From NCBI RefSeq assembly GCF_007752135.1, contig NZ_CP036298.1:8238501-8302500 (forward strand): DNA of 64,000 nucleotides, in the 5' to 3' direction. Below are positions 51,240-53,772 of the stretch, piece by piece. The DNA is from Aureliella helgolandensis. Its GTDB lineage: Bacteria; Planctomycetota; Planctomycetia; Pirellulales; Pirellulaceae. Position 1 is the first letter of the stretch. Each line of letters begins with the position of its first letter. A program made the translations under genes and the position numbers. The notes under the pieces were generated by a model. That model ran no database searches. It was not told the origin of the DNA and was given only the letters and a program-made list of their open reading frames with translations.

Positions 51240-51267
51240 TTGCATTCACTCCAGCGGGCGTCATAAT
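51240..51267 (+). promoter_or_regulatory. Candidate sigma-70-type promoter of the aroF leader
   Basis: TTGCAT at 51240-51245 and CATAAT at 51262-51267 are separated by 16 bp, with four and five matches to the consensus hexamers. Transcription would start near 51274, almost at the leader ATG, which would make the leader mRNA nearly leaderless. A weaker alternative lies upstream, TTGGAA at 51088 and TAAAAC at 51111 with 17-bp spacing. The choice needs transcript data. Confidence 0.4.
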
Positions 51268-51274
51268 AATCGCC

Positions 51275-51349
51275 ATGAACAATTATAGCTCCACCTATTC
51301 CTTTAGCTTTGCACCCCAGTTTACGACTGGGGCTGAGGGAAGTACGTAG
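51275..51349 (+). CDS. Tyr/Phe-rich leader peptide of aroF
   Basis: A 24-codon ORF (ATG 51275, TAG 51347-51349) in the aroF leader. Five of its first sixteen codons specify aromatic amino acids: Tyr at 4 and 8, Phe at 10, 12 and 16. The peptide begins MNNYSSTYSFSFAPQF. Codons 14-16 overlap the 5' arm of hairpin 1, and the 3' arm lies within the following codons, so the ribosome position would decide which hairpin forms. This is the arrangement of classical leader peptides such as PheL and TrpL. No good Shine-Dalgarno sequence precedes the ATG, which is the weak point. It is too short for ordinary gene finding. Confidence 0.6.
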   Translation: MNNYSSTYSFSFAPQFTTGAEGST

Positions 51350-51416
51350 AGCGGGAACACCCGAAATCGAACAACTCACAGCCCCGATGATCTTCGCGAT
51401 CCTCGGGGCTTTTTTT
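51314..51416 (+). promoter_or_regulatory. Transcription attenuator of aroF
   Basis: Three competing structures can form. The 1:2 hairpin pairs CCCCAGT (51314-51320) with ACTGGGG (51326-51332), loop TTACG. The antiterminator 2:3 pairs GGGGCTG (51329-51335) with CAGCCCC (51379-51385). The terminator 3:4 pairs AGCCCCGA (51380-51387) with TCGGGGCT (51403-51410), extended by GATC/GATC inside, and is followed by T residues to 51416. Stalling of the ribosome at Tyr/Phe codons of the leader would cover segment 1, free segment 2 to pair with 3, and allow readthrough into aroF. No other plus-strand gene lies upstream that could use this terminator. Confidence 0.72.
51380..51416 (+). terminator. Intrinsic terminator within the aroF leader
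   Basis: An 8-bp GC-rich stem (51380-51387 with 51403-51410), continued after one mismatch by a 4-bp GATC stem and a TTCGC loop, is followed by at least six T residues. It is oriented on the plus strand, 115 bp before aroF, where the nearest upstream plus-strand gene ends more than 3 kb away. Confidence 0.88.
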
Positions 51417-51530: not shown

Positions 51531-52556
51531 ATGATCGTCGTTATGGAAAAGAGCGCGACCCAAGCGCAAATCGAGCACATGATCGGACGCGTCCAAGAGC
51601 TAGGACTCAAGGCACACGTCATCCAGGGTACCGAGCGGACCGTGATCGCCGCCGTCGGAGACGACCGTGGCAGCAGTAAGGAATCGCTGGCCAGCGGACC
51701 TGGCGTTTCCGAAGTCGTGCCGATCCTGGCTCCCTACAAAGTGGCCAGCCGCGAACTCAAACCCGATCCAACTCAAATCCAGGTTGGGCAGTTCAAGGCC
51801 GGGGCGGGTGTGGTCGGCGTAATGGCCGGTCCCTGCTCAGTGGAGAGCGAAGAGCAAATCGTTTCGTCAGCTCACGCGGTCAAAAAAGCGGGCGCAACCG
51901 CACTTCGCGGCGGTGCGTTCAAGCCGCGAACGAGCCCCTACAGCTTCCAGGGCATGAAGGAAGAGGGCCTCAAGCTGTTGGCCCTGGCGCGAGAGGAAAC
52001 GGGACTGGCAATTGTCACGGAAGTCATGAGTACCGAAGAGGTCGACCTGGTAGCTAAATATTCGGACGTGTTGCAAATCGGCGCCCGCAACATGCAAAAC
52101 TATCGCCTGCTGGAAGCCGTGGGCAACAGCGACCGCGCCGTCCTTCTGAAACGTGGAGCCAGCGCGACAATCGAAGAATTCCTGCTGGCGGCCGAGTACA
52201 TTTTAAACGAGGGCAATCCCAACGTCATGTTGTGCGAACGTGGAATCCGCACCTTCGAAACCCACACCCGCTTCACTCTGCCACTGGCCACCGTCCCCTA
52301 CCTCCACCGCAAGACCCACTTGCCGGTCATCATCGACCCCAGCCACGGAACAGGACATGCGTACCTAGTTCCCGACATGTCGGTCGCCGCAGTGGCTGCC
52401 GGTGCCGATGGACTGATCATTGAGGTTCACCCGACTCCTGAAACAGCCGCCTCCGACGGCTACCAGTCGCTCACCTTCCCGCAGTTTGACGAGACGATGG
52501 CTCGCTGCGCTCGCGTCGCAGTGGCGGTCGATAAAGAGATGTGCACGATGCACTAA
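51531..52556 (+). CDS. aroF: 3-Deoxy-7-phosphoheptulonate (DAHP) synthase, type I-beta with N-terminal ferredoxin-like domain
   Basis: First enzyme of the shikimate pathway, condensing phosphoenolpyruvate and erythrose 4-phosphate. Residues 1-70 ([20 protein letters not shown] ... VIAAVGDD) are the ferredoxin-like regulatory domain known from Thermotoga-type enzymes, where it mediates Phe/Tyr inhibition. The barrel has [68 protein letters not shown] and [11 protein letters not shown], covering the PEP/E4P and metal site. Length 341 is normal. Its leader carries a probable Tyr/Phe attenuator, so control would act on both enzyme and transcript. No other aro gene is adjacent. Confidence 0.96.
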
Positions 52557-52641: not shown

Positions 52642-53772
52642 ATGGCAACCGAAATCGATTCCTTGCTAGGAAAGATTCACCAGGGTGACTGCGTCGCAGG
52701 TCTCAAGCAGCTCCCCAGCGACTCTATCGATCTGGCCTTCGCCGATCCGCCGTTTAACATCGGCTACAAGTACGATCAGTACGACGATCGCCTCGGTAGC
52801 GAAAAATACCTTGACTGGTCCAACGAGTGGATGCAGGAGATCTACCGAGTCCTCAAGCCGGCGGGCACATTCTGGTTGGCAATTGGGGACGAATACGCAG
52901 CGGAACTCAAGGTAGCCGCCACCAAGCTGGGATTCAGCACTCGCAATTGGGTCGTGTGGTACTACACCTTCGGAGTTCACTGCAAAACCAAATTCACACG
53001 TTCGCATGCGCATCTGTTTTACTTCGTAAAAAATCCAGCTCAATTCACGTTCAACCGCGACGCCATCGCTGTCCCGTCGGCACGCCAGTTGGTTTATGGC
53101 GACAAACGCGCCAACGCCAAGGGAAGAACACCTGACGACACCTGGGTTCTTCGTCCCCAGGATCTTCCGGAAGGCTTTTCGAAGGAAGAGGATACTTGGT
53201 ACTTCCCTCGCGTCGCTGGCACGTTCAAAGAACGCTCGGGCTTCCACGGTTGCCAAATGCCGGAACAGCTACTGGGGCGTATCATTCGAGCTTGCTCCTG
53301 TGAAGGCGAGATCGTCTTAGATCCGTTTTCCGGCAGTTCGACGACCTTGACCGTGGCCAAGAAGCTCGGTCGCCAATACTTTGGTTACGAACTCTCAGAC
53401 GACTACGTCAAGCTGGGGACCCGACGGCTCGAGGCGGCTAACGCAGGAGACCGCCTCGAAGGGGCCGAGGAGCCCAACGTGAGTGCGCCTGCTACCCATT
53501 CCCAAAAGGCGAGACGCTTGGCCGATCCAAGCCCAAAGGCCGTGAAGAAAAAAGCCGTAAAGAAGAAGGCGGCGAAGAAGTCCGTAGAGAAGAAGTCCGC
53601 AGAGAAGAAGTCCGCAGAGAAGAAGTCCGCAGAGAAGAAGCCCGTAGAGAAGAAGCCGGCAAAGAAAAGAGCCGTGAAGAAAAAGCCGACCAAGAAAAAG
53701 GCTGCGAAACGCAAGCCAGTTGTGAAGATGGTGAAACCAAGCTCTCAATTGTCCATCGAATTCGGACCCTAG
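52642..53772 (+). CDS. Orphan site-specific DNA methyltransferase with Lys-rich C-terminal tail
   Basis: Beta-class amino-methyltransferase: the catalytic motif ADPPFNIGY (residues 34-42) comes before the SAM-binding motif [11 protein letters not shown] (about 223-233). It modifies adenine N6 or cytosine N4; the recognition site cannot be deduced. The catalytic domain ends near residue 265. The last 85 residues are an extended, strongly basic tail built from KKxAxKK-type units, with a closing segment QLSIEFGP. No restriction endonuclease is adjacent, so it is an orphan enzyme, possibly regulatory like CcrM or Dam. The tail resembles histone H1-like DNA-binding tails and probably increases nonspecific DNA affinity. 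Confidence 0.9.
53581..53655 (+). repeat. Five 15-bp tandem repeats in the methyltransferase tail
   Basis: Units TCCGTAGAGAAGAAG, then three perfect copies of TCCGCAGAGAAGAAG, then CCCGTAGAGAAGAAG, lie end to end. Each encodes one five-residue Ser/Pro-Ala/Val-Glu-Lys-Lys step, so copy number can change without a frameshift. Confidence 0.95.

Follow-up and report, generated by a model that had tools for sequence, protein, structure and literature searches.

A Phe/Tyr-rich leader peptide as a probable transcription attenuator of the DAHP synthase gene aroF in Aureliella helgolandensis and related planctomycetes

The aroF gene of the planctomycete Aureliella helgolandensis is preceded by a short open reading frame (ORF) rich in Phe and Tyr codons and by a set of mutually exclusive RNA helices. 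We interpret this leader, with high confidence, as a ribosome-mediated transcription attenuator through which aroF transcription responds to the supply of charged tRNA-Phe and tRNA-Tyr. The leader lies in a 64,000-nucleotide stretch of DNA analyzed here as a whole (the window), from a genome that consists of one 8.44-Mb contig. The anatomy of the leader, its conservation, and the covariation of both alternative helices were computed from the window and its relatives, and the dependence on the position of a stalled ribosome comes from a folding model. An earlier note on the window had proposed the attenuator reading, and the comparative test now supports it with a conserved leader and covarying alternative helices.

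The leader-peptide ORF (MNNYSSTYSFSFAPQFTTGAEGST; 51275–51349, plus strand, as are the other elements of the leader) has 24 codons and is probably translated from a leaderless transcript. Five of its 24 codons specify Phe or Tyr, namely Tyr4, Tyr8, Phe10, Phe12, and Phe16, and both the ORF and these codons are placed as the earlier note had them. Segment 1 (51298–51321) contains the control codons Phe10 and Phe12 and provides the 5′ strand of a 1:2 hairpin, with an outer part at 51298–51307 and an inner part at 51315–51321. Segment 2 (51325–51341) serves either as the 3′ strand of that hairpin or, through GGGGCTGAG at 51329–51337, as the 5′ strand of an antiterminator. The inner hairpin pairs 51315–51321 with 51325–51331; its 5′ arm, attributed earlier to codons 14–16, consists of codons 14 and 15 and part of 16. 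It is extended by 10 bp formed between 51298–51307 and 51332–51341, and the complete 1:2 hairpin, from 51298 to 51341, folds at −21.2 kcal/mol. Segment 3 (CTCACAGCCCCGA; 51375–51387) can pair with segment 2 to form the antiterminator or with segment 4 to form the terminator. The antiterminator duplex joins GGGGCTGAG to CTCACAGCCCC (51375–51385) with one mismatch, and the GGGGCTG/CAGCCCC complementarity reported previously is present within this region. The intrinsic terminator (51380–51416, −20.1 kcal/mol) is built by a stem at 51380–51410 followed by a T-run at 51410–51416, the same plus-strand structure already recognized in the earlier reading. The folding energy of the leader region is 4.1 sd below that of dinucleotide shuffles, none of which (0/200) folds as well. 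The nine nucleotides up to and including the leader stop codon (51341–51349, AGTAYGTAG) are largely retained in L004 and L011, despite an earlier TGA that ends their leaders, so this stretch seems to be kept as RNA; it lengthens the antiterminator in some computed duplexes.

The regulated gene, aroF (51531–52556, plus strand), encodes a DAHP synthase with an N-terminal ferredoxin-like regulatory domain (PF00793, PF18152, NF006421/TIGR01361), which agrees with the domain assignment made before. The closest PDB structures to its product are 4grs, 1rzm/3pg9, and 1vr6, of which we take 1rzm/3pg9 and 1vr6 to be the Thermotoga DAHP synthase. The aroF start lies 114 nt past the T-run, outside the alternative helices described above. 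On the other side of the leader, proS is encoded on the opposite strand, with its transcription pointing away from the leader. Directly downstream of aroF, at 52642–53772 on the plus strand, is a DNA methylase gene (PF01555) whose product has a lysine-rich, repetitive C-terminal tail.

The course of events that we infer, from transcription start through translation and stalling to termination, would run as follows. RNA polymerase would start at or within ~1 nt of the leader AUG, and a ribosome would follow it through the 24-codon leader. When Phe- and Tyr-tRNAs are plentiful, the ribosome would reach the UAG and cover segment 2; the 3:4 terminator would then form, and aroF would not be transcribed. 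If no ribosome were loaded, the 1:2 hairpin would form, leading again to termination. A ribosome stalled at Tyr8, Phe10, or, above all, Phe12 would cover segment 1, the 2:3 antiterminator would form, and aroF would be transcribed.

The effect of the stall position was computed with a model in which the ribosome occludes all RNA as far as 15 nt beyond the first base of the P-site codon, with reaches of 12–18 nt tried. The read-out is the probability that segment 2 holds the 5′ arm of the terminator before the 3′ arm exists; the model is one of equilibrium folding that assumes the ribosome edge and ignores co-transcriptional kinetics. In the window, this arm-held probability is 0.02 for the free RNA and 0.03 when codon 4 occupies the A site, rises to 0.39–0.57 at codons 5–11, and reaches its highest value, 0.59, at Phe12. 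It is 0.56 at codon 14, 0.42 at codon 15, and 0.16 at Phe16, stays at or below 0.16 from codon 16 on, and is 0.00 at the stop. With the full terminator present, only the Phe12 stall tips the balance at a reach of 12–16 nt (0.55–0.56 versus 0.41–0.43), and at 18 nt the Phe10 stall does so as well as Phe12. Tyr4 is too far upstream to act in the model, with the exception of a value of 0.37 at the 18-nt reach before the 3′ arm is made. The value for codon 25 at this reach is an indexing artefact and was disregarded. The predicted sensor is Phe12, helped by Phe10 and Tyr8, and Phe is predicted to be the dominant amino acid. The same calculation was applied to 84 distinct leaders (95 minus 11 that share the last 30 nt of their ORF with another). 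The arm-held probability averages 0.58 for aromatic codons versus 0.39 for other codons, and the difference is positive in 81 of the 84 loci (within-ORF permutation p 0.001). A ribosome at the stop gives an average of 0.04; the free-RNA average is already 0.45, which shows that the strength of the 1:2 hairpin differs between leaders.

Every feature of leader-peptide transcription attenuators that can be tested in sequence is present at this locus. First, a short ORF rich in codons for the pathway products lies upstream of the biosynthetic gene. Second, an intrinsic terminator separates this ORF from the gene. Third, an antiterminator that excludes the terminator by sequestering its 5′ arm competes with a hairpin spanning the control codons. 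Fourth, in the folding model, the control codons are placed to free the antiterminator when a ribosome stalls on them. By these features, computed and modeled, the aroF leader is a member of that class.

Conservation was assessed first within the genus, where 12 of 15 genomes, including that of the window, have an aroF ortholog with readable upstream DNA; in G008 the locus runs into a contig end, and no ortholog was obtained from G002 or G012. At all 12 loci the leader is F/Y-rich, segment 2 is of the GGGG type, and a terminator is present, as illustrated by the congener leaders MRNYFFNYFFTFRPLFTCGAEKST, MKTRPYYFYFCGFRPAFTSGAVKGM, and MNIFPAFTYFFGFGPYCSSGDGQSM. A strict rule was also defined, which asks for an ATG-initiated ORF of 12–45 codons with at least five and at least 20% F/Y/W codons and a stop 5–65 nt before a terminator. 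Ten of the 12 loci pass it, and the two that fail, L012 and L014, have four aromatics each. In L011, L012, and other aroF loci, the aroF matches contain one in-frame stop in the aligned stretch, perhaps reflecting alignment past the true stop.

Across the family Pirellulaceae, 135 of 241 genomes have aroF at E ≤ 1e-110, and 108 loci, genus and family together, were examined upstream. The strict rule holds for 71 of these 108 upstream regions, for none of their 108 reverse complements, for one of 324 dinucleotide shuffles, and for none of 10 aroF paralogs (~47–52% identity; one of them, L020, has only 141 nt of upstream DNA). When the rule is applied to other classes of amino acids, A/G/P scores in 57 of 108 regions and S/T/N in 31 of 108, so that the clean controls there are the shuffles and reverse complements only. 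The earlier note had proposed to examine the conservation of the leader ORF, of its aromatic codons, and of the paired segments. All are conserved in relatives, with the leader present at the 12 readable loci of the genus and, by the strict rule, leader and terminator together at most of the family loci. The possibility that all aroF genes of the family have the leader is rejected by the same count. Among the 37 failures are the congeners L012 and L014 and seven loci without a terminator (L189, L191, L201, L202, L204, L209, and L212, candidate attenuation losses); these seven look like real losses, and part of the family would accordingly have lost this control or replaced it. A cluster of loci (L181–L184, L186–L189, L191, L201–L204, L209, L211, and L212) is without a leader by the strict rule. 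Relatives that keep aroF and lack the ORF had been named in the earlier note as the outcome that would speak against attenuation; they occur in part of the family but not among the 12 readable loci of the window's genus, and losses elsewhere do not undo the conservation in the window's own genus.

The amino acids represented in the leader differ between genera. Every one of the 84 distinct leaders contains F, 80 contain Y, 61 contain W, and 59 combine all three, figures that are not independent of the choice of loci, which were partly picked for aromatic content. Leaders of the window's genus contain F and Y, with W in one of 12. DAHP synthase feeds all three aromatic pathways, and a tri-aromatic leader would therefore be a plausible joint sensor; in many related genera, the W-bearing leader probably reports all three aromatic end products. 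The earlier proposal of Tyr/Phe sensing is supported with two refinements: Tyr4 is nearly idle in the model, and relatives often add Trp.

For the analysis of RNA structure, 96 upstream regions were scanned (89 aroF orthologs and seven paralogs), and 47 were used for pairing and fold statistics. Thirty-three of the 47 entered alignment A2 and covariance model R1, with 14 omitted for long or doubtful ORFs, and 16 entered alignment A1. In the 16 sequences, 77.6% of the antiterminator cells are paired, two-sided changes occur at 8 of 12 pairs, and the covariation score is 0.251 versus 0.176 for shuffled pairs, a control that does not remove the relatedness of the sequences. Sliding the register by 1–3 columns lowers the pairing to ≤51%, with the caveat that the reference structure derives from one of the counted sequences and favors the named register over the slid ones. 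For the terminator, the paired fraction of cells is 96.8%, with both sides changed at 7 of 10 pairs. The covariation of the paired segments anticipated in the earlier note is therefore found for the antiterminator and terminator helices, with pairing at its peak in the named register. Matched 2:3 pairing is stronger on average than pairing between segments swapped across species (p 0.00015 for the 12 congeners and 0.00005 for the 47 loci), although the species' own segment 3 ranks first among all partners in no more than 3 of 12 congeners and 6 of 47 loci. The 2:3 pairing beats 95% of shuffled ORF ends in 34 of the 47 loci; it is weakest, among the 47, in the relative Roseimaritima sediminicola (L038/L126), which carries the element. 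RNAalifold on the full alignment returned the terminator alone, as is to be expected for mutually exclusive helices. The register of the 1:2 hairpin drifts between species, and for this reason a codon-order shuffle was used in place of column-wise covariation: leader ORFs have a mean fold z of −2.04 over the 47 loci, with 28 below −1.64 and 19 not.

Upstream of the leader, we identified a putative promoter that the earlier note did not contain. It consists of TTGCAT at 51240–51245, a 16-nt spacer, and CATAAT at 51262–51267 (51240–51267 overall, plus strand), and is predicted from conservation: in the 16-sequence alignment, few columns are as well conserved as those of TTG and CATAAT. A generic sigma-70 scan of the window did not flag this promoter, whose −35 element is a poor match to the consensus. 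The boxes were counted in 64 distinct leaders obtained by the strict rule, with start codons assigned from the aromatic fraction and without regard to the promoter. Forty-three of the 64 have a box matching TATAAT at five of six positions within 15 nt of the ATG, and 42 of these 43 have a TTG at 15–19 nt spacing. The distance from box to ATG in the 43 is 6 nt in 24 leaders, 7 nt in 14, 9 nt in three, 4 nt in one, and 13 nt in one. Where only a single in-frame ATG is possible, the box is found in 21 of 31 leaders, and the background of the same box in equal windows elsewhere upstream is 2.4%. An SD-like motif is present in one of the 64. Transcription usually begins 6–8 nt past the box. With 7 nt separating CATAAT from the leader ATG in the window, the RNA would be expected to start with the AUG itself. 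The leader mRNA is probably leaderless, judging from the position of the promoter.

A leaderless start bears on the first of four alternative explanations, in which the terminated leader RNA or its peptide acts mainly in trans, with attenuation secondary. The predicted start mirrors that of trpL in Sinorhizobium meliloti, where both the RNA and the peptide (rnTrpL and peTrpL) act in trans (PMC7298713). The sequence of the aroF leader peptide, however, is variable, with only the aromatic richness and a Gly-Ala specified by segment 2 held in common, and at the RNA level conservation coincides with the promoter and the helices of the attenuator; a mainly trans-acting role is unlikely. Control of aroF translation, or of Rho-dependent termination or processing, would have a parallel in some actinobacterial leader peptides without obvious terminators (PMC1262725). 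Here, a strong GC stem with a T-run is conserved at a median of 29 nt downstream of the leader stop, and the distance of the aroF start from the alternative helices also argues against such control, which we consider very improbable. The hairpin could in principle be a plain terminator of an upstream gene or short RNA, with the ORF and other hairpins coincidental. This explanation needs no leader, and the free window RNA does terminate in the model (P 0.99); yet proS is transcribed away from the hairpin, the combination of F/Y/W-rich ORF and terminator is practically confined to the true upstream strands as opposed to their reverse complements and shuffles, it was not found before the 10 aroF paralogs, and segment 2, for which a plain terminator has no need, covaries with segment 3. 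We give it almost no weight. Equally hard to credit is a metabolite-binding riboswitch or T-box with an incidental ORF: T-boxes do target aromatic pathway genes in Firmicutes, but no Rfam family reaches its gathering score in the window or 11 related loci, the alignment from promoter to terminator comprises the ORF and ~30 nt with no further conserved block, and the constraint falls on the aromatic codons and the three segments. A known Rfam cis-regulator was also sought in the leader region by a relaxed search and rejected, the best sub-threshold match being sX13 at E 0.15, with its good part falling on the terminator.

The proposed aroF attenuator has counterparts in other bacteria. Its leader ORF continues past segment 2, in contrast to E. 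coli trpL, in which the stop codon lies between segments 1 and 2. Closest in function is the aroR-aroF attenuator of Corynebacterium glutamicum, in which a Phe/Tyr leader peptide precedes a DAHP synthase gene and stalling on Phe/Tyr codons brings relief (Neshat et al. 2014, as cited in PMC11802643; Mentz et al. 2013, PMC4046766). Its Phe-Tyr-Phe leader responds to limitation of Phe and not of Tyr, according to PMC11802643, citing Neshat et al. 2014. The two systems belong to different phyla, and the Phe-Tyr-Phe core of C. glutamicum contrasts with five aromatics in the window and often more, plus Trp, in its relatives. The pheL-pheA and pheST leaders of E. coli are named in PMC11802643 as well. 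Such leaders use Phe codons and stalling-controlled attenuation, and differ in the genes they regulate. Leader peptides on leaderless transcripts, several with terminator control, are described for S. meliloti trpL and for leuL, trpL, and ilvL of Streptomyces lividans (PMC7298713 and PMC8079986); there, the leaderless starts are reported from transcript data, whereas ours is predicted from the promoter position, and the amino acids differ.

Leaders of similar layout are found before other genes within the planctomycetes. In the 8.44-Mb genome of the window, the aroF element is the only full-length match to the covariance model built from 33 leaders (102.8 bits), and the next match, at 29.1 bits, covers only the terminator part and lies upstream of leuA. 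That gene is preceded by a Leu-rich leader with a GTG start and a terminator (VNFTSSNLLLSGLALLALADCER; G000:C1:7944705–7944776, minus strand, L346). Four congener stretches before leuA (L347–L350) have similar Leu-rich leaders; in a fifth, L351, which lies before an apparent other LeuA-like gene, a Leu-rich leader was not found. For TIGR00973-type leuA, 10 of 13 relatives have a Leu leader. The planctomycete leuA leaders, in the window's genome, its relatives, and Gemmataceae, share the layout of the aroF leader, with a product-rich short ORF and a terminator ~20–50 nt past the stop. They differ in carrying Leu codons; unlike the aroF leader, the leuA leader of the window's genome has a GTG start and no promoter box noticed right before it.

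Across the phylum, the covariance model matches 59 of 392 genomes, most of them in the terminator only, so this count is not an estimate of distribution. Seventeen stretches around the fuller matches were inspected, and 15 have an identifiable amino-acid gene behind the element. In five, leuA of a family genome comes next (MNQNLLLLQLLLITPGC and kin; NCBIfam typed one of these genes and sequence the others), and in one, a leuA-like gene of G425. Window-type aroF follows in five (L251 and L257 typed; L254, L258, and L260 by sequence). Four, from other planctomycete groups, have F/Y-rich leaders before aroFGH-type DAHP synthases (L249, L252, and L256 by NCBIfam, L253 by sequence), which suggests that control may have been re-acquired or moved between isozymes. 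The remaining two, L255 and L259, have no identifiable amino-acid gene behind the element; L255 (G369:C87) is a full-length model match with an ORF not enriched in aromatics, and probably represents a terminator whose upstream match arose by chance.

A survey of further genes (omitting L274, L320, L334, L339, and L340 as truncated, fragmentary, or distant) found a W leader before none of 20 trpE genes and an F/Y/W leader before none of 19 prephenate dehydratase genes. An I/L/V leader precedes one of 22 ilvB genes, a background level given one of 20 and one of 19 in the trpE and prephenate dehydratase sets; the trpE and ilvB sets include two and five loci, respectively, below the family cut-off. 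These counts reject the prediction of the same control before these other aromatic and branched-chain genes. Among six loci with citramalate-synthase-like genes, of which only L278 and L280 were typed, three (L275, L277, and L279; for example MNTTKVAPIIGISIIIRHGAR) have clearly Ile-rich leaders by eye, and these ORFs end 26–33 nt before a terminator. At L280, in the window's own genome, a terminator is present and no Ile leader was seen. In Gemmataceae, to which G632 (the genome of L107) belongs, relaxing the rule slightly to allow GTG starts yields Leu leaders before 22 of 30 leuA genes and aromatic leaders before six of 19 aroF orthologs. None was found before 10 aroF paralogs or in reverse complements. 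The 30 leuA loci were taken from 37 matches, and L402 was omitted for too little upstream DNA.

The earlier note was not aware of such a leader in this phylum, and we found no report of leader-peptide attenuation in planctomycetes in the open-licence literature, an earlier prediction in subscription papers being possible. One Planctomycetes match in that literature, PMC4833913, deals with stop–start distances of leader genes and mentions no aro gene in its main text. Naville and Gautheret (2010; PMC2965389) wrote that leader-peptide systems were confined, as far as known, to Proteobacteria and Actinobacteria, to which they added Firmicutes; Planctomycetota are not named in their main text. The mechanism itself is already known; the interest lies in where it occurs, how far it reaches across the phylum, the probably leaderless start, and its bearing on coupling.

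Attenuation needs a ribosome close behind RNA polymerase, and conserved attenuators therefore speak, at the genomic level, for a coupling of transcription and translation in planctomycetes, Gemmataceae among them. In that family, a nucleus-like separation of the two processes has been debated. Taken jointly, the surveys may indicate that attenuation is old and general for first committed enzymes in Planctomycetota, Gemmataceae included, and that the aroF leader is an OR-gate in many genera, a reading to which we assign an even chance. Its scope would comprise two DAHP synthase subfamilies, two leuA types, and perhaps citramalate synthase. In the OR-gate, a shortage of Phe, Tyr, or Trp would be reported through one short ORF on a leaderless mRNA. 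If this is true, transcription and translation would be coupled in Gemmataceae. The finding would bring a textbook control mechanism to the phylum Planctomycetota and suggests amino-acid-responsive expression tools for genetically tractable planctomycetes.
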